The position numbers and the translations under genes are program-made. Positions 18,658-27,788 of a DNA stretch of 35,255 nucleotides are shown one piece after another (position 1 is the first letter of the stretch; each line of letters starts with the position of its first letter). The DNA comes from Myxococcales bacterium (GTDB lineage: Bacteria > Myxococcota_A > UBA9042). Location of the stretch: the NCBI GenBank assembly GCA_023954815.1, contig JAGSHB010000054.1:1-35255 (forward strand). The letters run 5' to 3'. The notes under the pieces are model-generated. The model was not told the DNA's origin. It ran no database searches and saw only the letters and a list, made by a program, of their open reading frames with translations.

Positions 18658-19881
18658 CTAACGCGCATGCCGGGCAAGACCGGCGGCTTCGACGACAGCA
18701 CGACGCCCTTCCGGCCACCGCTTAAAGCGCTCGATAAAGGCATCAAAGGCCGCACGCGAGCCGTCCCGCTTCGCTGCGATAAGCGCCAGATTGACGAGCG
18801 CCTTCTTCGCCGCCGACAACACGCGGTCGATTCCTTTCCACTCGGTGTGCAGGGTCAAGAACCCCTCTAGCGCGGCCGTGGTGCCCGCCCGCTGCGCGAC
18901 CGACAAACGCACCGCCGCCAGCCGCTCACGGGCTGCCGGACCTTGCTGGGTCGCCTCTGGCCACCGCTCGTAGCGGCGCAGAAACTCCACGAGCATGGCG
19001 TCCGTCGGCAACTGACCCAGCTCCCGCCACGCGGCGGCAACCTCATGACGGCGCCCCTCGGCTAAGTAGCGCTCAATCCCCTTGGCGCCAGCGTAGCGCG
19101 CCGCCAGCGACCGATAGGCCTTGGCGGTGTCGATTCTTCGCGCTTCCGCGAGGGCCTGCGCCACCTCGTAGGGAAAGGCCTTGCGCGCCCAAGACGACTT
19201 CGCAAACCGGGCGCGATACGCCCGCCAGCGGTCGACACTCGCCGCCTGGACTGCCTCTGAAAAGCCGACGCTGGCTTCCAACTGCAACGCTTTCTTGAGA
19301 ACCGGAGCAGCCTCAGGCCAGCGTTCGTACGTCACATGGAAACGGTCAAACGCTTGCATCGTCCCTGTCTTCTTCGCGGCCTCAAACGCGATCTCCACCT
19401 GTCTCAGACGAGAGAGCGCAACGGAGGGCGTCCTAGGGTAGCGCTTGCGAAAGTCACGGTGTGCCTGTAGCGAATCGGCTCTCAGGGTCATGTCCCGATA
19501 CCAGGCTGCGGCCTCGTAGACGTAGGCTCGCCGATGCTGTTTGAGGGTCGCCTGGGTGCGCGGAATGCTCTTGCGAAACTTCCGATAGGCAACGACGGTG
19601 TCCGTCTTGTGTGCCAAACGGAGCGCAGCCTCAGCCACCAAGGTCTCCACCTTGTCGAGCTCCTCAGGAGGCACGGCGCTCTGCCGGCTGTCCTGCAAAA
19701 ACGCCTCACCCTTGTCGACCGCTTCCTGATAGCGACCGGCTTCGACCATCTCTCGCATCTGTTGATGCATTGGGGCACAACCCGCGATCGCAGCGGTCAA
19801 CATCAGCCCGACAACGCGCTGCCACGGCCTGCCCAACAAGCGCTGTACGTGCCTGGCGCGGCGCCGTTTTCCGACGCCCAT
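18658..19881 (-). CDS. Putative lipoprotein with eight helical repeats
   Basis: From ATG 19881 this is a 407-aa protein with a basic N-region (KRRRARH) and a lipoprotein signal ending IAGC (Cys35). The mature part is almost entirely alpha-helical, with about eight repeats spaced 37-48 residues. Their rough consensus is 'AxxA(K/R)xxGTxxAFxxFxxRYxRWPEA'; clear copies contain YERWPEA, RRYERWPEA and RFKRWPEG. This resembles TPR/HAT-type solenoids used for protein binding. The start is uncertain: an in-frame ATG at 19911 is possible and neither has a Shine-Dalgarno. It converges with the aminopeptidase gene (27-bp gap). Family unknown; a periplasmic or surface scaffold is the likeliest role. Confidence 0.8.
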   Translation of the reverse strand: MGVGKRRRARHVQRLLGRPWQRVVGLMLTAAIAGCAPMHQQMREMVEAGRYQEAVDKGEAFLQDSRQSAVPPEELDKVETLVAEAALRLAHKTDTVVAYRKFRKSIPRTQATLKQHRRAYVYEAAAWYRDMTLRADSLQAHRDFRKRYPRTPSVALSRLRQVEIAFEAAKKTGTMQAFDRFHVTYERWPEAAPVLKKALQLEASVGFSEAVQAASVDRWRAYRARFAKSSWARKAFPYEVAQALAEARRIDTAKAYRSLAARYAGAKGIERYLAEGRRHEVAAAWRELGQLPTDAMLVEFLRRYERWPEATQQGPAARERLAAVRLSVAQRAGTTAALEGFLTLHTEWKGIDRVLSAAKKALVNLALIAAKRDGSRAAFDAFIERFKRWPEGRRAVVEAAGLARHAR

Positions 19882-20181
19882 ATTGTGCGGACTGGCCAAT
19901 TGTGCCCCCATGAATTCAGCGTTTGGCGCGTGGCTGCTACACGCCTGACGACGCCCTCGTGCACGCACCCCTCTAGGGTAGCCCCGCAAAGGTCAGCGTC
20001 CAACCGAATCAATGTGTAGGGTTGTGATCCGCCGCCTACAAGCGGTCGTCAACGCTCTTCGCTGCGCCAATAGTGCGGTCGCGCACCCACTGGATCCGTC
20101 ACTCGTGCCGCTGTACATGGGTGGAGCACACGATCTATGGTCGCCTCATCAGCTGAGCACCATACCGACGAGGACGGCGCC
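19882..20181. other. Divergent intergenic region (300 bp)
   Basis: This lies between the helical-repeat lipoprotein and the CDP-alcohol phosphotransferase. I see only a small hairpin-forming dyad (GTGCG-N4-CGCAC, about 20076-20089) and no clear promoter pair, RNA gene or conserved short ORF. Both neighbouring genes must be driven from here. Confidence 0.45.
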
Positions 20182-21237
20182 ATGTCCCATCCAGCCACCG
20201 CGCGAGATGCGAGCAGCAAGAGCAGCTATCAGGTCGTTGACCACTCGATCTTGCTTCGTTTGCTGAAACCCTACGTCTGGGAGCCGATTGCAGCGCACAT
20301 CCCCACTTGGGTGTCTGCCAATACAATCAGCATTGTCGGAGCCCTGTCGGCCGTAGCGGCACTCGTCAGTGTCATGCTGACCGACAGCAGCCAACCCGGT
20401 TGGTACGCGCTCGCATCCCTCTTCGTGGCGATTTACATCAACCTCGACAACCTCGATGGCGCCCACGCGCGCAGAACAGGTCGATCGGCCCCCATGGGCG
20501 AGTTCATCGACCACTGGATGGACACCATCAGCAGCGGCATTGTGATCTGGGCGGTGACCTACGCCATTCAGCTCCCGCCATGGATCATCGTCGCCCTGTT
20601 GTGCACCAACACATTAGCGTTTTACGCGACCTACCTCGAGCAACAGACGACCGGGCACATGCACATGGGTATGCTCGGCAATCTGGAGGGGCTGGTCATC
20701 GTGGCGGTCATTCTCGCAGCTGTCTCCGTCTTCGGCGTCGAGATTTTCTCCGAATATCAGATATTTGGCCTACTAACCGCCTCCTGGGCCTTGGCGATAT
20801 GGACGATGCTGCAGTGCGCATGGACCGCGCTGACCTGCTCCTGGCGAACCCGCTCTGACGGGTTGAGTTGGGTCGCGCTCTTGCTCGCCTTGGGCGCTGC
20901 GTTCGCTTGGATGCGATGGGGGGAGGTGCCGTTGGTCCCCGTGGCTATCACGGTGGTGTTTTGTAATTCGGCGTTTTCCGGTCGGCGATTGGTCGCGCAC
21001 ATTTTGAAGGAGCCCCCACGGGCTGGGCGGTCAGCCGCATTGTTGGTGATGGCCGGCGCTGGTCTGTCGCTGGGTCTAGACCTGGCAGCGAATCACCAAG
21101 AGACGCTGGCTTGGGTGGTCGCTAGTCTGCTGATGATGCAGGCCGCGTTCGACTTTGTGCGCACGACACGAGGCCGCAGCCAAGATCTCCAGCCCAACGA
21201 ATTCTTGGGCTGGTTCTTCGCCAGAAGCCAGCGGTAG
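20182..21237 (+). CDS. CDP-alcohol phosphotransferase (choline/ethanolamine phosphotransferase-like)
   Basis: This 351-aa polytopic membrane enzyme carries the complete family motif DG-x2-AR-x8-G-x3-D-x3-D: Asp92, Gly93, Ala96, Arg97, Gly106, Asp110 and Asp114, preceded by Asp89. The N-terminal VVDHSILLRLLKPYVWEPIA and PTWVSANTIS segments resemble eukaryotic-type choline/ethanolamine phosphotransferases, which move a head group from a CDP-alcohol to diacylglycerol. About eight further hydrophobic helices follow. ATG 20182 is preferred over 20137 because of a GAGGA upstream and the motif distance. Its neighbours make CMP-activated 2-aminoethylphosphonate, so the natural head-group donor may be CMP-AEP rather than a CDP-alcohol; that substrate is inferred from context. 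It converges with the pntC-type gene (11-bp gap). Confidence 0.9.
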   Translation: MSHPATARDASSKSSYQVVDHSILLRLLKPYVWEPIAAHIPTWVSANTISIVGALSAVAALVSVMLTDSSQPGWYALASLFVAIYINLDNLDGAHARRTGRSAPMGEFIDHWMDTISSGIVIWAVTYAIQLPPWIIVALLCTNTLAFYATYLEQQTTGHMHMGMLGNLEGLVIVAVILAAVSVFGVEIFSEYQIFGLLTASWALAIWTMLQCAWTALTCSWRTRSDGLSWVALLLALGAAFAWMRWGEVPLVPVAITVVFCNSAFSGRRLVAHILKEPPRAGRSAALLVMAGAGLSLGLDLAANHQETLAWVVASLLMMQAAFDFVRTTRGRSQDLQPNEFLGWFFARSQR

Positions 21238-21248
21238 GGCCGCGCCGA

Positions 21249-23111
21249 TTAGCGAACGGCGACCGCAGCCTTTCGCTCGGCGATGACATCTTCAAACGCA
21301 AATAGAAAAGCGGCGATGTCAGACGGGTACAGCGCGCCCAGCACCGAGAGCCGAAAGCTGGCTCCGCCCGCGGTTTTTCCGGGGTAAATGGTGAATCCGC
21401 GCTCAAAAAGGGCGTCGTGGATGGCAACAAAGTCGTACCACTCGTCAGACGGCTCGCGGATGGCCATGAGGATACGGCTGTGGTCGGCATCCGGTAGTAA
21501 GAACTCAAAACCAAGCCGTTCAATCCCGTCGTAGAGCACTTGGTAGCAGGCGTCGTAGCGCGCGTGGCGGCCTGCGACCGTTTCAGACTCCAGCTCGGTC
21601 AGCGCTTGCGCCAGCGCAGACAGCACCTGCGGCGGGCAGGTAAAGCGCGTCTGCCCGCTGGCCTCCAACTTGTCGTATTGAGCCACCAGGTCGAGGTAGA
21701 AGGCGCGGGGCACGGCAGCGCGCGCGGCCTCAAGCGCGTCGAGTCTCGCGATCACAAACGAAATACCGGCCATCCCCTGAATGCACTTGTTCGCGCTCGA
21801 AATGATGTAGTCCAAGCCAGGCAGTGGACCGATGGGGCGCGCCGCAAAACTCGACATCGCATCGAGGATGAGCGACGCGCCGTTGGCATGGACGACTTCA
21901 GCCAATGGCGCCAACGGGTTGAGCAGCCCGGAACTGGTCTCGTGGTGAATCGCAGCAACGTGAGAGATGCGCCCTGCAGCGGCCGTAAGAATCTCTCCGA
22001 CCGCAGCCACATCAATCGGCTTGCCCCAGCCCACATCGACGGTCTGATGCGGCACACCGAGCGTTACGCAAATCGCCGTCATGCGGGTGCCGTAGTCGCC
22101 GTTGTCCAGGATGAGCAGCTCCTTGTCAGGTGGCACAACCGACGCCAGCACCGCCTCTACCGCTGCGGTGCCGCTCGCAGCAAATGGAATCGTGGTCCAC
22201 CCCGTCGGAGCCACGAGCGCGGCCAGCCGCTGACGCACATCGGCCATCATCTCAGTGAAAGAGACCTCCCGCGGGCAGACGTCCGTCATCATCATGGCGC
22301 GCTTGACGGTGTCGGTGGTGGTCGCTGGCCCCGGGTTGAGCAACACCGCGCGCGTCGGTGCCCCAGCCAGCTGCTCGTGACGGGCGATCTCGGGCCACAA
22401 CTGGGTCACAACACGGCGATAGTGAGACGGGTCGTCGATCTCTCCCCAGCGCAGGTCGTCCACCCGCGAAAGCGCGATGGCTTCGGTGGCGGCGAGGCTC
22501 ACGAGAGCGTCGGTTTCGTAGCTCATCTGGCCGTGACCGTGCTGGTCTACAAAGGCGACAAACGCTTCGTGCATCCGCGCTGCCAATCCCGCTGAAATAC
22601 GATTGATCCCGACAAATTCACCGGCGACGCTGCGCAGCGCACCGCCGTCTTTCGCCATGTCGACGAGCCGGCTGGCCTTCCCTTCGACCCACACCTCGTC
22701 ACCCGCGCCAGTCGGGCCCGACATCAGCACGACATTGGGCTCGGCGTGGTCCAACAACGTCGACAGGGCGCGCGTTTCGTACAGTAGATCGCTCTCCAGC
22801 AGCAAAAAATCGTCTTGCACCACCGCCAACGCCTTGACCAGCGACGCCATGCTGCCCGTGGTGGCAAACGCGGCGTTGTGAACCACATCGACATCGTCAC
22901 GCTGCGCCGCGAGCGCTTCGTAGGTCTCGCGCATGTGACCGGTGACGATGACGACCCGCTCAATGCCGTGCTGCTGAAGCAGGTTCAATGAACGCTCCAC
23001 GAGGGTCTGACCGCCAATCGTCAACAAGCCCTTGGGGCTGGAAGCATGAATCGATTGCAGCCGAGATCCGAGGCCGGCTGCGAGGATGATGGCGGTCGTC
23101 AAACGGGGCAT
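21249..23111 (-). CDS. pntC: Bifunctional phosphonate cytidylyltransferase / 2-aminoethylphosphonate transaminase
   Basis: This 620-aa cytosolic fusion has two parts. Residues about 1-240 are a nucleotidyltransferase: AIILAAGLGSRL, SPKGLLTIGG, a metal Asp in LLLESDLLYE and a second acidic cluster in WGEIDDPSHY, as in PntC and LicC-type enzymes. Residues about 255-620 are a class V PLP aminotransferase of the 2-AEP:pyruvate type, with Lys442 in SSANKCIQGMAG as the Schiff-base lysine and LLNPGPATTTDTVKRAM at its start. The order equals the PntC-AEPT fusion known from Treponema phosphonolipid synthesis: transaminase makes AEP from phosphonoacetaldehyde, PntC makes CMP-AEP. An AGGAG site lies 8 nt upstream. 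It is divergent from the PEP mutase gene with a 161-bp shared promoter region. Confidence 0.9.
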   Translation of the reverse strand: MPRLTTAIILAAGLGSRLQSIHASSPKGLLTIGGQTLVERSLNLLQQHGIERVVIVTGHMRETYEALAAQRDDVDVVHNAAFATTGSMASLVKALAVVQDDFLLLESDLLYETRALSTLLDHAEPNVVLMSGPTGAGDEVWVEGKASRLVDMAKDGGALRSVAGEFVGINRISAGLAARMHEAFVAFVDQHGHGQMSYETDALVSLAATEAIALSRVDDLRWGEIDDPSHYRRVVTQLWPEIARHEQLAGAPTRAVLLNPGPATTTDTVKRAMMMTDVCPREVSFTEMMADVRQRLAALVAPTGWTTIPFAASGTAAVEAVLASVVPPDKELLILDNGDYGTRMTAICVTLGVPHQTVDVGWGKPIDVAAVGEILTAAAGRISHVAAIHHETSSGLLNPLAPLAEVVHANGASLILDAMSSFAARPIGPLPGLDYIISSANKCIQGMAGISFVIARLDALEAARAAVPRAFYLDLVAQYDKLEASGQTRFTCPPQVLSALAQALTELESETVAGRHARYDACYQVLYDGIERLGFEFLLPDADHSRILMAIREPSDEWYDFVAIHDALFERGFTIYPGKTAGGASFRLSVLGALYPSDIAAFLFAFEDVIAERKAAVAVR

Positions 23112-23272
23112 AGGCGCGCTCCTATGGATTCGTCATGTGCGGCTGGGTTGAATTTCACCGACATTACACTTCAATCACACATGACGTATACAGGAGGCAC
23201 GCAAGTTCTCACTCCGTTCGACCCGCCCGATACCGGGACGCTGCAATCTCTGTTTTGAACCCAGGATCATCG
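23112..23272. promoter_or_regulatory. Shared divergent promoter region of the phosphonate genes
   Basis: This AT-richer gap separates the divergent pntC-type and PEP mutase genes. On the plus strand, TTACAC (23164-23169) and TATACA (23187-23192) are 17 bp apart, a weak promoter candidate. A GGAGG-containing stretch right after it (23194-23198) has no start codon at usable distance. Confidence 0.3.
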
Positions 23273-24976
23273 ATGGCACACAATGATAGCAACGGCGCAA
23301 CAGATAGGTTCGAGAGCTTGTTGACGAGCAAGGCGCGGACGCTGCGGCGCGCATTTGAAGGCAACGGTGTCGTCCGCTGCTTGGGCGCCCACGACGGCCT
23401 CTCGGCGAAATTGGCGGAGCGAGCTGGCGCGGACGCGATTTGGGCCAGCGGCCTCGAAGTGTCCACCGCCCACGCCGTGCCAGATGCCAACATCCTCACC
23501 ATGACGGACTACCTGCGCTCGGCCAGCTTCATGAACGACGCGGTCGATGTTCCGGTGGTCGCCGATTGCGACACCGGGTACGGTAACGTCAACAATGTCA
23601 TCCATATGGTGCGGCGCTACGAAGCCGCCGGCATCGCCGCGGTGTGTATCGAGGACAAGCAGTTTCCCAAGGTCAACTCGTTCGTGCCAGGCCGCCAAGA
23701 GCTGGCTGCTATCGGCGAGTTCGTCGGTAAGATTCGCGCAGCCAAAAAGGCGCAACGCACCCAGGAATTCATGCTGCTTGCCCGCGTTGAAGCTTTGATT
23801 GCGGGCTGGGGTCATGACGAGGCCCGCCGCCGCGCCCACGCCTACGTCGAGGCAGGCGCCGACGGCATCCTTATTCACAGCAAGCAGCCCAACCCCGACG
23901 AAATCGTGCGCTTCATCGAGGAGTGGGACGCGCCAGTGCCGCTCGTCATCGTGCCGACGACCTACCCGCAGCTGTCGCTGTCGGACATCCAGGCGCTCAA
24001 CAAGGTGCGAATGGTCATCTACGCCAACCATGGCCTGCGTTCGTCCATCGTCGCCATGTCCAACACCTTCAAGGAGATTTTGGCGGAGGGAACAACCGCG
24101 ACAGTGGAGCCGAAGATCGCCCCACTCAAAGAAGTGTTTGCGCTCCAGGGCATGCCAGAGTTGAAAGACGCGGAGAAGCAGTGGGGCCACACAGGCAAGG
24201 ACCCGATTCGCGCCATCATTCCGGCCGCGGGACAGCCCCAGGACGCGGGCCTGCGCAATGCGGTCGGCGGCGGATCGGTGGCGAAGTTGGCGATCAATGG
24301 CAAACCCCTGCTGCAACGTCAGCTGGAGCTGCTGAACAACACCGGCATCCAAGACGTCCGTGTGGTTGTGGACCAAGATGCCGGCGATTTCTCGGTGGAT
24401 GGCGCCACGATGGTGAAGAAAGACGGCGCCGTTGGCTCCCATATGGTCGGCAGCGTGCTCGCGGGTCTGCAGAGCGCCAGCCTGCAAGCGGGTGACCGAT
24501 TGCTGGTGCTCTACGCGGACATCCTCTTCGACCGCACCATCGTCGAGCGGCTGTCGGATTGTGACGGCGACGTCACCCTGGTCGTGGATCGCGCGTTCGC
24601 GAGCCGTTCAGCCTCTGGCAAGACAGTCGATCTCATCGAAGCGAGTCTGCCCCGGGCATCAGATGGCCGCCATCTGGCCTCGGAAGCGCGAAATCAGCTG
24701 CAAAATATAGGTGATTCGGTCACGGGTGACGCGGCCACGCACGAGTTCATCGGCATGGCCCTGTTTTCAGTCACCGGCGTGCAAGCCCTGACAGCGGTGG
24801 CTGCGAGTGCACCTGCTGGCGCCGACCTCACGTGGTGTCTCAAGCAGCTGCTAGACGGGGGAACCGAAATCGACGTGCTAGAGGTCGAACGCGGCTGGTC
24901 GGAGGTTCATACCCTGGCAGACCGGGACCGTGTCGCGGCCCAACTGGCAGGAGCTCCTTACTTGGTGGCGTCATGA
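23273..24976 (+). CDS. pepM: Phosphoenolpyruvate mutase fused to nucleotidyltransferase-like domain
   Basis: This 567-aa cytosolic protein starts with PEP mutase (about 12-300), which rearranges PEP to phosphonopyruvate and forms the C-P bond. The diagnostic EDK-x5-NS motif is intact (Glu127-Asp128-Lys129, Asn135-Ser136), with DCDTGYGN upstream. From about 310 on is a nucleotidyltransferase-like domain (AIIPAAG..., INGKPLLQRQLELL, LLVLYADILFD). It lacks the GxGxR loop after AAG, has AK where PK is usual, and has EVHT where EID(T/D) normally supplies a metal Asp, so catalysis is doubtful. AGGA precedes the ATG by about 8 nt; an upstream in-frame ATG at 23135 encodes non-conserved sequence. The stop overlaps the ppd start (ATGA). 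Confidence 0.92.
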   Translation: MAHNDSNGATDRFESLLTSKARTLRRAFEGNGVVRCLGAHDGLSAKLAERAGADAIWASGLEVSTAHAVPDANILTMTDYLRSASFMNDAVDVPVVADCDTGYGNVNNVIHMVRRYEAAGIAAVCIEDKQFPKVNSFVPGRQELAAIGEFVGKIRAAKKAQRTQEFMLLARVEALIAGWGHDEARRRAHAYVEAGADGILIHSKQPNPDEIVRFIEEWDAPVPLVIVPTTYPQLSLSDIQALNKVRMVIYANHGLRSSIVAMSNTFKEILAEGTTATVEPKIAPLKEVFALQGMPELKDAEKQWGHTGKDPIRAIIPAAGQPQDAGLRNAVGGGSVAKLAINGKPLLQRQLELLNNTGIQDVRVVVDQDAGDFSVDGATMVKKDGAVGSHMVGSVLAGLQSASLQAGDRLLVLYADILFDRTIVERLSDCDGDVTLVVDRAFASRSASGKTVDLIEASLPRASDGRHLASEARNQLQNIGDSVTGDAATHEFIGMALFSVTGVQALTAVAASAPAGADLTWCLKQLLDGGTEIDVLEVERGWSEVHTLADRDRVAAQLAGAPYLVAS

Positions 24977-26079
24977 TCGGTGCTCCTGCCCTCGCAGACG
25001 CGCTCAAGGAGTTGAACTACGACCTGTTCACCGGCGTGCCGTGCTCATTTTTCAAGTCCATGATCAACCAAGCGATCGCCGACGAAGATGTACGCTACTT
25101 CGCCGCGGCCAACGAAGGCGCAGCCGTCGCGATCGCGGCCGGAGCGCAGGCTGCGGGTCGGCAACCGGTGGTCATGCTCCAGAACTCGGGTCTGGGCAAC
25201 ATGATCAATCCGCTGACCAGTCTGGCCTGCATCTACGGTCAACCGATGCTCCTGCTCGTCTCGGGGCGGGGTTATGGGGTCGCCGACGAGCCTCAGCACG
25301 TCATCATGGGCCGCCGCACACACGACATGCTCGACGCGTGCGAGCTGGTGCACGCGGACTTGCCCACCGACCCTACCGACGCTGTGGCCTTGGTGGCCCG
25401 GCTGACGCAGACCTCCCTCGAATCCCAGCGCCCCGTCGCGGTGGTTGTACCCAAGGGGACGGTGGGCAAAGGGCTCGCTGGTACCATCGCCGAACTTCCC
25501 CACCCGATGAGTCGGCGCGAGGCGATCGAGGCCGTCATGGATGCCGTCCCGCACCAAACGACCGTCGTCGCAACGACCGGCATGACGGCGCGCGAACTGT
25601 TCGAAGTCGACGACCAACCCAGCAACTTCTACATGATGGGGTCGATGGGGCATGCGTCGGCGTTCGGCTTCGGAGTGGCCGTGGGTAATCCGGACCGGAA
25701 GGTCGTCATCCTCGACGGAGACGGCTCTGTGCTGATGCACATGGGCTCGCTGTCCACGGTCGGCCACTACCGCCCCAACAACTTGATCCACGTGGTGTTG
25801 GACAATGAAGCCTACGAGAGCACCGGCAACCAAGACACGACGTCGTCGACAACGCATATCGCGGATGTCGCAGCTGCGTGTGGCTACGCGAGCGCCGTTC
25901 AGGTCGATACACGCGCCGCGCTCGCCGATGCCATCGCCCGTGCTGAGCGCAGCGACGGGCCGACGATGGTGCACGTCAAAGTACACCGCCACGTACTGAC
26001 CAAACCCGTACGCATCACCACGCGATGGACGGCCGAACAGATCGGCCAACGGTTTCACGCGGCAGCGGCGTCCCGCTGA
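24973..26079 (+). CDS. ppd: Phosphonopyruvate decarboxylase
   Basis: This 368-aa TPP enzyme decarboxylates phosphonopyruvate to phosphonoacetaldehyde and so pulls the unfavourable PEP mutase equilibrium forward. It has the TPP-activating Glu48 (AANEGAAVAIAAG), TGVPCSFFKS near the N-terminus as in Ppd proteins, and the diphosphate/Mg motif GDGSVLMHMGSL...LDN (about 248-277). In Ppd, pyrimidine- and diphosphate-binding domains are arranged in one short chain as here. ATG 24973 overlaps the PEP mutase stop as ATGA, an arrangement that couples translation of the two consecutive enzymes. Downstream, 10 nt separate its stop from a small coupled ORF. Assignment is strong because of motifs plus context. 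Confidence 0.95.
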   Translation: MIGAPALADALKELNYDLFTGVPCSFFKSMINQAIADEDVRYFAAANEGAAVAIAAGAQAAGRQPVVMLQNSGLGNMINPLTSLACIYGQPMLLLVSGRGYGVADEPQHVIMGRRTHDMLDACELVHADLPTDPTDAVALVARLTQTSLESQRPVAVVVPKGTVGKGLAGTIAELPHPMSRREAIEAVMDAVPHQTTVVATTGMTARELFEVDDQPSNFYMMGSMGHASAFGFGVAVGNPDRKVVILDGDGSVLMHMGSLSTVGHYRPNNLIHVVLDNEAYESTGNQDTTSSTTHIADVAAACGYASAVQVDTRAALADAIARAERSDGPTMVHVKVHRHVLTKPVRITTRWTAEQIGQRFHAAAASR

Positions 26080-26092
26080 GGAGAGATGGGTG
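26079..26092 (+). promoter_or_regulatory. Ribosome binding site for a GTG-started small ORF
   Basis: AGGAG at 26079-26083 stands 6 nt before GTG 26090-26092, ideal spacing. The nearby ATG at 26086 is only 2 nt from the AGGAG and opens a different, short frame. Confidence 0.6.
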
Positions 26093-26215
26093 TCCACGCA
26101 CGACGACCAGCCTCACCTCGGCATGCAGCAACGTCACATCGAACTCGCCGGTGAACAGGTTGAGCAGTCCGCCCCGCGCAGCTACCGCAGGCAGCTGAAG
26201 CTCCACGCACCATGA
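26090..26215 (+). CDS. Small protein of 41 codons, translationally coupled
   Basis: A GTG-started ORF fills almost the whole gap between ppd and the membrane protein gene. It has a strong AGGAG site at 6 nt, and its TGA overlaps the next ATG as ATGA. The 41-residue product is hydrophilic, rich in Gln, His and Arg (starts STHDDQPHLGMQQRHIELAG, ends with a basic QLKLHAP tail), with no signal peptide or membrane segment. I recognise no family. It may be a real small protein or a leader whose translation loads ribosomes for the downstream membrane protein. The start site, overlap and operon position support translation; there is no functional evidence. Confidence 0.5.
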   Translation: MSTHDDQPHLGMQQRHIELAGEQVEQSAPRSYRRQLKLHAP

Positions 26216-27333
26216 CGCGATCCCGTCTCCTACGTGGTCTACGCATCTTTGTGGGCATCACCCTGGTGACGTTCGGCTATCTCATCTACTCGGCGATTGC
26301 GTCGAAACAAGCCGATTTGGCGCTTGGACTCCGAGATCTCAAGCCCGGATGGCTCGTTGTGGCTGCAATCTTCGCCCTTCAGGAGGGCATCTGGGGCGGC
26401 ACACGCTTGTTCCTCTTGGGGCGAGTGCTATGGCCAGAGATCAAGCTAAGGACTGCTATCAGCTCCGAGTTCGTCCTCATGTTCGCCGCCGGCGTGACCC
26501 CCGCCCAAGCCGGTTCGGTGCCTGCCCAGGTCGCGGTGCTCATGCACAGTGGGATGCGTTTTGTGCATGCAGCGACGGCCGAACTCCTGGTCGCTACCTG
26601 CACAATCGTGTTCTTTTTGGGATCCGCGCTCACCATCTTGGTCATGCAACAGACCGGCGCGATGGAGCTCGCGGGTGGTTCAAAACTTCACGCGCTCGTC
26701 GGGCTCAGCGTGGTGGTTTTTGGCCTCGCGCTGACGGCCATCGTGCTCGCCGCGCTCTCCCCCGGCTTTCTCAAAAAGGTGATCGCTCTGGTACTCGGCC
26801 GACCACTACGACGGTGGCCCAACCTCCTACAACGCATCCTGCTGACAGTGGACGACTTCCATGCTGGCATCCGCCTATACGCCCAGCGCGGCAAGCTCGC
26901 CTATCTCGGCGCCGTCGCGCTGACCTTCGGCTTCTTCTGCTCCAGATTCGCCGTGGCCTACTTCATCCTACTCGCGCTGGGCATCCCCACGGAGCCAACC
27001 TCGTTCGTGACCATCGGCCCGCCGATTGTGCAGATCGTACTGGTGCAAGCCCTGCTCAATTTCGCGCTCTACCTCAGCCCGACACCGGGAGCGAGCGGCA
27101 TCGCTGAAGCCGGCTCAACCTGGCTGATGGCGCCATGGGTCCAGGGAGTGTTCGCCCTGCCCTATCTCGTGCTGTGGCGGTTCTTGGCCCTCTTTCTCAG
27201 CATGATTGTCGGCGGAGTCTACGTGTTCCGGTTCCTCGGCACGACCGCTCTTGAGGCCGAAATCAACAAGGGAGATACGATGCGTGCTGCGCTGCAGTCC
27301 CGCGATTCCGGGACGAGACAAGCGCAAGACTAG
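26212..27333 (+). CDS. Flippase-like integral membrane protein (LPG_synthase_TM / UPF0104)
   Basis: This 373-aa protein has about eight transmembrane helices and the family pattern of the lysylphosphatidylglycerol synthase transmembrane region (UPF0104/AglD-like), including GVTPAQAGSVPAQ (about 96-108) and the hallmark LSPTPGASGIAEAG near residues 285-300. It lacks the cytosolic aminoacyl-transferase domain of MprF, so it is the flippase-like part alone. Members are linked to translocation or synthesis of polar lipids. Its start overlaps the small ORF stop (ATGA), which puts it in the pepM-ppd operon. It may move the aminoethylphosphonate lipid across the inner membrane; this role is inferred from operon context only. 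Confidence 0.85.
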   Translation: MTRSRLLRGLRIFVGITLVTFGYLIYSAIASKQADLALGLRDLKPGWLVVAAIFALQEGIWGGTRLFLLGRVLWPEIKLRTAISSEFVLMFAAGVTPAQAGSVPAQVAVLMHSGMRFVHAATAELLVATCTIVFFLGSALTILVMQQTGAMELAGGSKLHALVGLSVVVFGLALTAIVLAALSPGFLKKVIALVLGRPLRRWPNLLQRILLTVDDFHAGIRLYAQRGKLAYLGAVALTFGFFCSRFAVAYFILLALGIPTEPTSFVTIGPPIVQIVLVQALLNFALYLSPTPGASGIAEAGSTWLMAPWVQGVFALPYLVLWRFLALFLSMIVGGVYVFRFLGTTALEAEINKGDTMRAALQSRDSGTRQAQD

Positions 27334-27398
27334 CTCCGCCCGATGTTGAGGTTTGTGCGGCTGTGCTCTACCCTCAGGAGACTTCACTGGCGGGGCAC

Positions 27399-27788
27399 AT
27401 GAACGACACCGTGGACGACCCCGTGGACGGACGACTCGCCTTTGCGACGACAGAGGCAACCGACATCTCCGTCCTCCCGAAACGCTTGGTCCGGCGCCCT
27501 CACATCCTCCAAATCGTCGCGGGGGACGTGGCACCGCGCACCATCCCACTGACGCAAGATTCCATGAGCGTCGGCCGATCCAATGAAGCCGACATTCGCA
27601 TCATGACCGCAGACCTGAGTCGTATGCACATGCGTATTGATCGGACGCGGCGGGGCTTCAAGTGCTTTGACATGGACAGCCGGAACGGCGTGTTCGTCAA
27701 CGAAGTTCGGGTCCATAGCGCGGTGCTGCGTGATGGCGACCTCATTCAGCTCGGCAACGTCGCGCTGATGTACCACGAGGGCAGCTAA
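27399..27788 (+). CDS. FHA-domain protein
   Basis: This 129-aa protein consists mostly of one forkhead-associated domain (about 37-125), a phosphothreonine-binding module. The expected residues are visible: MSVGRSNEADI, then LSRMHMRI (Ser and His of the SxxH motif), then DSRNGVFVN and LRDGDLIQLG. The N-terminal 35 residues are Asp/Thr-rich and may hold a phosphorylation site. The start is uncertain: ATG 27399 has only a weak G-rich site, and an in-frame GTG at 27363 would add 12 residues. Its stop overlaps the next ATG (TAATG), so it is coupled to the MBL-fold hydrolase. A 65-bp gap separates it from the phosphonate operon. Confidence 0.85.
   Translation: MNDTVDDPVDGRLAFATTEATDISVLPKRLVRRPHILQIVAGDVAPRTIPLTQDSMSVGRSNEADIRIMTADLSRMHMRIDRTRRGFKCFDMDSRNGVFVNEVRVHSAVLRDGDLIQLGNVALMYHEGS

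Follow-up and report, generated by a model that had tools for sequence, protein, structure and literature searches.

A five-gene block in a Myxococcales genome predicted to lead to an aminoethylphosphonate lipid through a eukaryote-type phosphotransferase

The genome of a Myxococcales bacterium (6.44 Mb, 97% complete) carries a compact block of five genes that, judged by the families and motifs of their products, probably encodes a pathway to a 2-aminoethylphosphonate (AEP)-diacylglycerol phosphonolipid. The block lies on contig C271, within the window, that is, the whole stretch of 35,255 nucleotides analysed here. The four predicted steps from PEP to CMP-AEP rest on families with tested members. 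By its family assignments the gene set is of a kind already predicted in Roseomonas, Burkholderia and lichen Nostoc, and what is new is a transferase of the eukaryotic CEPT type. The features are the following (window positions).

20137..21237, plus strand: CEPT1/CHPT1-type CDP-alcohol phosphotransferase (CDP-AP), 366 aa (PF01066 6.9e-13; phmmer CEPT1 2.2e-19)
21249..23111, minus strand: PntC-AEPT fusion, N-terminal CTP:AEP cytidylyltransferase and C-terminal AEP transaminase (6pd1 5.2e-127)
23135..24976, plus strand: PepM with a C-terminal MobA-like nucleotidyltransferase, NT2 (PF13714 1.6e-55; PF12804 2.1e-10)
24973..26079, plus strand: Ppd, phosphonopyruvate decarboxylase (TIGR03297)
26212..27333, plus strand: UPF0104 / PF03706 (MprF flippase-like) membrane protein (PF03706 2.3e-20)
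19653..27408, strand not applicable: block missing from the same-genus genome G138, which has 411 bp instead (blastn and tblastn of the window flanks)

All five genes (window 20137-27333) are intact and grouped as an earlier note on this DNA had described them, and curated models agree. The start that it gave for the phosphotransferase, 20182, is a possible inner Met of an open reading frame that begins at 20137. For PepM, the ATG at 23273 is the likelier start, and Ppd starts at the ATG at 24973, in an ATGA overlap with the PepM stop codon. Because PntC-AEPT is divergently encoded on the minus strand, the five genes do not form one operon; a search for promoter and terminator signals at the block found none that were convincing. 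Co-location of pepM, ppd, aept, a cytidylyltransferase gene and a CDP-AP gene, as found here, is what defines a predicted phosphonolipid gene cluster; PMC5987646, after Yu 2013, lists pepM, ppd, AEPT, NTPT, CDP-AP and hpnL.

The comparison with close relatives delimits the block as a unit. The order of an M24 peptidase gene, a lipoprotein-like gene and an MBL gene is kept in G138 and in the same-family genome G281, where the peptidase and MBL genes are spaced by about 1.8-1.9 kb, versus 9.2 kb in the window. When the window flanks were compared with loci L164 and L165, the 7.76 kb of window 19653-27408 corresponded to the 411 bp of G138, the alignment edge at 19653 falling inside the lipoprotein gene, which places the block at gene level at about 19990-27398. 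The difference is the five genes, which were either gained here or lost there. At the limit used, no PepM protein match was found in the other searched genomes of the genus and family, and signs of an insertion mechanism were sought at the block and neither tRNA nor inverted repeats were found. Just beyond it, a small FHA-like open reading frame (window 27399-27788) overlaps the start of the MBL-fold gene and is kept in G138.

The AEP-making enzymes correspond to those named in the earlier note: a PEP mutase with an intact EDK-x5-NS motif, a phosphonopyruvate decarboxylase and a PntC/AEP-transaminase fusion. The PepM motif, EDKQFPKVNS, fits EDKxxxxxNS, and the protein matches 5unc at 1.1e-107 and PF13714 above the cut-off; against the TIGR02320 PEP mutase model it scores 309.5 bits, just under the cut-off of 319.6. 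Ppd reaches 385 bits against TIGR03297 (cut-off 312.5) and the AEPT domain 377 bits against TIGR03301 (cut-off 361), with the PLP lysine motif SANKCIQG present. The fusion aligns with the solved Treponema denticola enzyme over residues 6-606, and the PntC domain satisfies the GxG(T/S)R...PK criterion. All five PntC residues checked in the alignment (R17, K27, E106, K154 and E199) equal R15, K25, E104, K153 and E196 of Tde-PntC. PepM would convert PEP to phosphonopyruvate, Ppd would decarboxylate this to phosphonoacetaldehyde, and the AEPT domain would aminate it to AEP. The other domain of the fusion, PntC, would then activate AEP with CTP to give CMP-AEP.

A second nucleotidyltransferase, which the earlier note had overlooked, forms the C-terminal domain of PepM (NT2, NTP_transf_3, window 24200-24973). 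It lacks a clear GxG(T/S)R...PK motif; this motif is degraded in the window and in genome G159, and PK is kept in most relatives. NT2 was considered as the main cytidylyltransferase and set aside for its poor motif. Because that motif is degraded and the PntC domain has the five checked residues, it is the PntC domain that is taken to carry out cytidylylation. The window NT2 and those of loci L002 and L083 make up a separate subtype common to G159 and Nitrospina, with PK altered or lost in two of the three.

Rice et al. 2019 defined PntC and called the tailoring that follows C-P bond formation in bacteria enigmatic (PMC6697681). The T. denticola PntC-AEPT (Tde1415, 6PD1/6PD2) resembles the window fusion in its two-domain order, in the match of about 5e-127 and in the key PntC residues. 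The same paper reads its cluster as part of surface glycan tailoring, and its passages on that cluster name no CEPT partner. AEP might likewise go to a glycan here (a capsule, LPS or teichoic-like polymer), the CDP-AP serving another lipid: for most of the pepM/PntC systems studied so far, the presumed role is the decoration of glycans or lipids, with LicD-like transferases, and an AEP-capsule is known in B. fragilis (PMC6697681). However, the block holds neither a glycosyltransferase nor a LicD-like gene, its sole transferase is of the CEPT type, and CEPT co-occurs with pepM, so that a glycan destination is considered unlikely.

The CDP-alcohol phosphotransferase with every active-site residue that the earlier note had recognised was confirmed by a PF01066 match above the cut-off and by the full motif, D104xxD107G108xxA111R112...G121E122xxD125H126xxD129. 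The best solved relatives by sequence are CEPT1 and CHPT1, the type to which the human enzyme making phosphatidylcholine and phosphatidylethanolamine belongs, and an AF2 model (pLDDT 82.5) matches them over the full-length fold (VIA Z 31.9-33.6 over 326-333 residues), versus Z 14.4 for the best other CDP-AP type. In CHPT1 the extended motif is D1xxD2GxxAR...GExxDHxxD, in which Glu129 and His133 are needed for activity, are missing from most bacterial CDP-APs and are proposed to activate diacylglycerol (PMC10182977). E122 and H126 of the window enzyme correspond to this Glu-His pair. On the modelled fold and motif, the enzyme is assigned to the eukaryotic CEPT1/CHPT1 type and not to the usual bacterial type. 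It shares the fold (Z 33.6 to CEPT1/CHPT1) and the extended motif with the eukaryotic enzymes and with the T. denticola diacylglycerol choline phosphotransferase, but identity is only about 16-18%, and the choline-contacting Glu43 and Phe186 of CHPT1 are replaced by L and M. These two positions were tried as a head-group marker and rejected, as they gave no clean split between enzymes from genomes with and without pepM. The window enzyme took no clear position in a tree built from CEPT-like enzymes.

The distribution of these genes in the phylum links the CEPT-like enzyme to phosphonate synthesis. PepM was found in 33 of 379 genomes and the CEPT-like enzyme in 31, with both in 24, and by genus the overlap was 19/22. 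The probability of such an overlap is about 2e-18 at genus level, if genera are independent, and about 6e-6 at family level, assuming 60 families; the counts treat related genomes as independent, and the estimate by family is the more cautious of the two. The prediction that the phosphotransferase would accompany pepM in related genomes held. CDP-AP genes occur in 20/33 pepM neighbourhoods, in genomes that average about seven such genes each. CEPT-like genes lie directly beside pepM/ppd clusters in several Myxococcota and, outside the phylum, in one Opitutaceae and one Bacteroidales genome; a Nitrospina genome and one Deltaproteobacterium have both genes apart in the genome.

Genus g2, genome G297, Treponema and Fulvivirga have CEPT-like genes but no pepM, and the fold alone therefore does not fix the head group. 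A nucleotidyltransferase gene directly precedes the CEPT-like gene in g2 and G297, and in the latter (L139:6422-9383) PF03706, nucleotidyltransferase and CEPT-like genes form a tight three-gene run. This arrangement suggests that the module is Kennedy-like in general. The window enzyme could make ordinary PE or PC by the Kennedy route, the AEP pathway beside it serving another purpose. Treponema does have a 1,2-diacylglycerol choline phosphotransferase, and the pepM-less CEPT-like genes adjoin another nucleotidyltransferase; against this, choline/ethanolamine kinase was not seen in the block, the PntC residues match those of the AEP-specific enzyme, and the tie to pepM is strong and the genes are present as a single block, which leaves the ordinary route improbable. 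In another genus of the window's family (L146-L150; genomes G153, G060, G005, G021 and G050), a stand-alone NTP_transf_3 gene is followed by a CEPT-like gene in the absence of pepM, possibly for a Kennedy-type PC/PE route or for the use of scavenged AEP.

The predicted final step resembles the Kennedy pathway in that a head group activated by CTP is moved to diacylglycerol, and differs from it in that the head group is a phosphonate derived from PEP and the enzyme is linked to PepM/PntC and not to choline kinase. The CEPT1-like membrane enzyme would transfer the aminoethylphosphonyl group of CMP-AEP to the hydroxyl of diacylglycerol, deprotonated by H126/E122 in a Kennedy-like reaction with a C-P bond. 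The earlier note had also allowed for AEP-ceramide, and phosphonosphingolipids do occur in B. stolpii (PMC6148460). A ceramide or other sphingoid acceptor is nevertheless very improbable, because no serine palmitoyltransferase was found in the 97%-complete genome, where the only SPT/KBL-family protein found was glycine C-acetyltransferase, and CEPT1-type enzymes use diacylglycerol. The suggestion that phosphonate replaces the phosphate head group is more tentative: the genome keeps a phosphatidylserine decarboxylase, and an AEP lipid would therefore be made in addition to ordinary PE and not necessarily in its place.

The UPF0104 protein exceeds the cut-offs of PF03706 (73.7 bits, cut-off 33.4) and TIGR00374 (58 bits, cut-off 43), and it gave no match to the HpnL subfamily TIGR03476 at E up to 0.01. 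Its expected association with pepM was seen in part. Among the 33 pepM genomes of the phylum, the window alone has PF03706 near pepM; its close homologues (48-53% over nearly the full length) were found in only four other genomes, all pepM-positive and each with an adjoining CEPT-like gene, and PF03706 lies inside the pepM cluster in Roseomonas and Mycetohabitans. By analogy with its MprF-like domain, the protein may be a phosphonolipid translocase that carries the lipid through the inner membrane, or may handle it in some other way, which is the weakest step of the pathway. The pathway reading gains strong, though indirect, support from the CEPT fold and motif, from the co-occurrence with pepM, from the CEPT-UPF0104 pairing where pepM is present and from the occurrence of the five genes as one unit. 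The route from PEP through AEP and CMP-AEP to a lipid drawn in the earlier note was supported in part, and its lipid product and translocation stand as predictions. It is a serious possibility, which we put forward tentatively, that AEP-diacylglycerol is the product of a bacterial CEPT1-type enzyme reserved for CMP-AEP and partnered by a dedicated UPF0104 translocase.

Clusters with CDP-AP and hpnL in lichen Nostoc and Burkholderia have been called phosphonolipid genes (PMC5987646). Together with those of Mycetohabitans and Roseomonas, they share with the window AEP synthesis, a cytidylyltransferase, a CDP-alcohol phosphotransferase and a PF03706 protein, and annotated Roseomonas and Mycetohabitans records show the full functional set. 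In these two, however, the CDP-AP is short (200-230 aa) and lacks the Glu-His pair, and their PF03706 protein is of the HpnL type, whereas the window has a CEPT1-type enzyme and a protein that is not HpnL; the window block is thus of the known, predicted kind with a different, eukaryote-type transferase. A 2OG-Fe oxygenase, which would make 1-hydroxy-AEP, was not found in the window genome in a search run without a positive control. The block and the phylum-wide CEPT/pepM tie provide a specific candidate final enzyme and a candidate translocase. If the reading is true, CEPT/UPF0104 pairs would be a marker of organisms that make phosphonolipids, and would fill in, for several phyla, the final step that bacterial phosphonolipid synthesis has lacked. 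Since phosphonate lipids withstand ordinary phospholipases (PMC5987646), they could matter for predation, for persistence and for the cycling of phosphorus.

Other arrangements were also observed. At pepM clusters L035-L038, L040 and L047, a different CDP-AP class (DGVxARA...) adjoins pepM, and several of these genomes (G067, G140, G342, G348 and G278) have a CEPT-like gene elsewhere. On plasmid p1318-3 of Roseomonas marmotae (L094), the pepM/CDP-AP/HpnL-type cluster adjoins the hopanoid genes ispH, hpnH and shc. In Nitrospina (L064:1323-9023), one PF03706 gene and one gene for a 2OG-Fe oxygenase lie within 8 kb of a CEPT-like gene, with pepM on another contig; this oxygenase is 48% identical to that of the Mycetohabitans pepM cluster.
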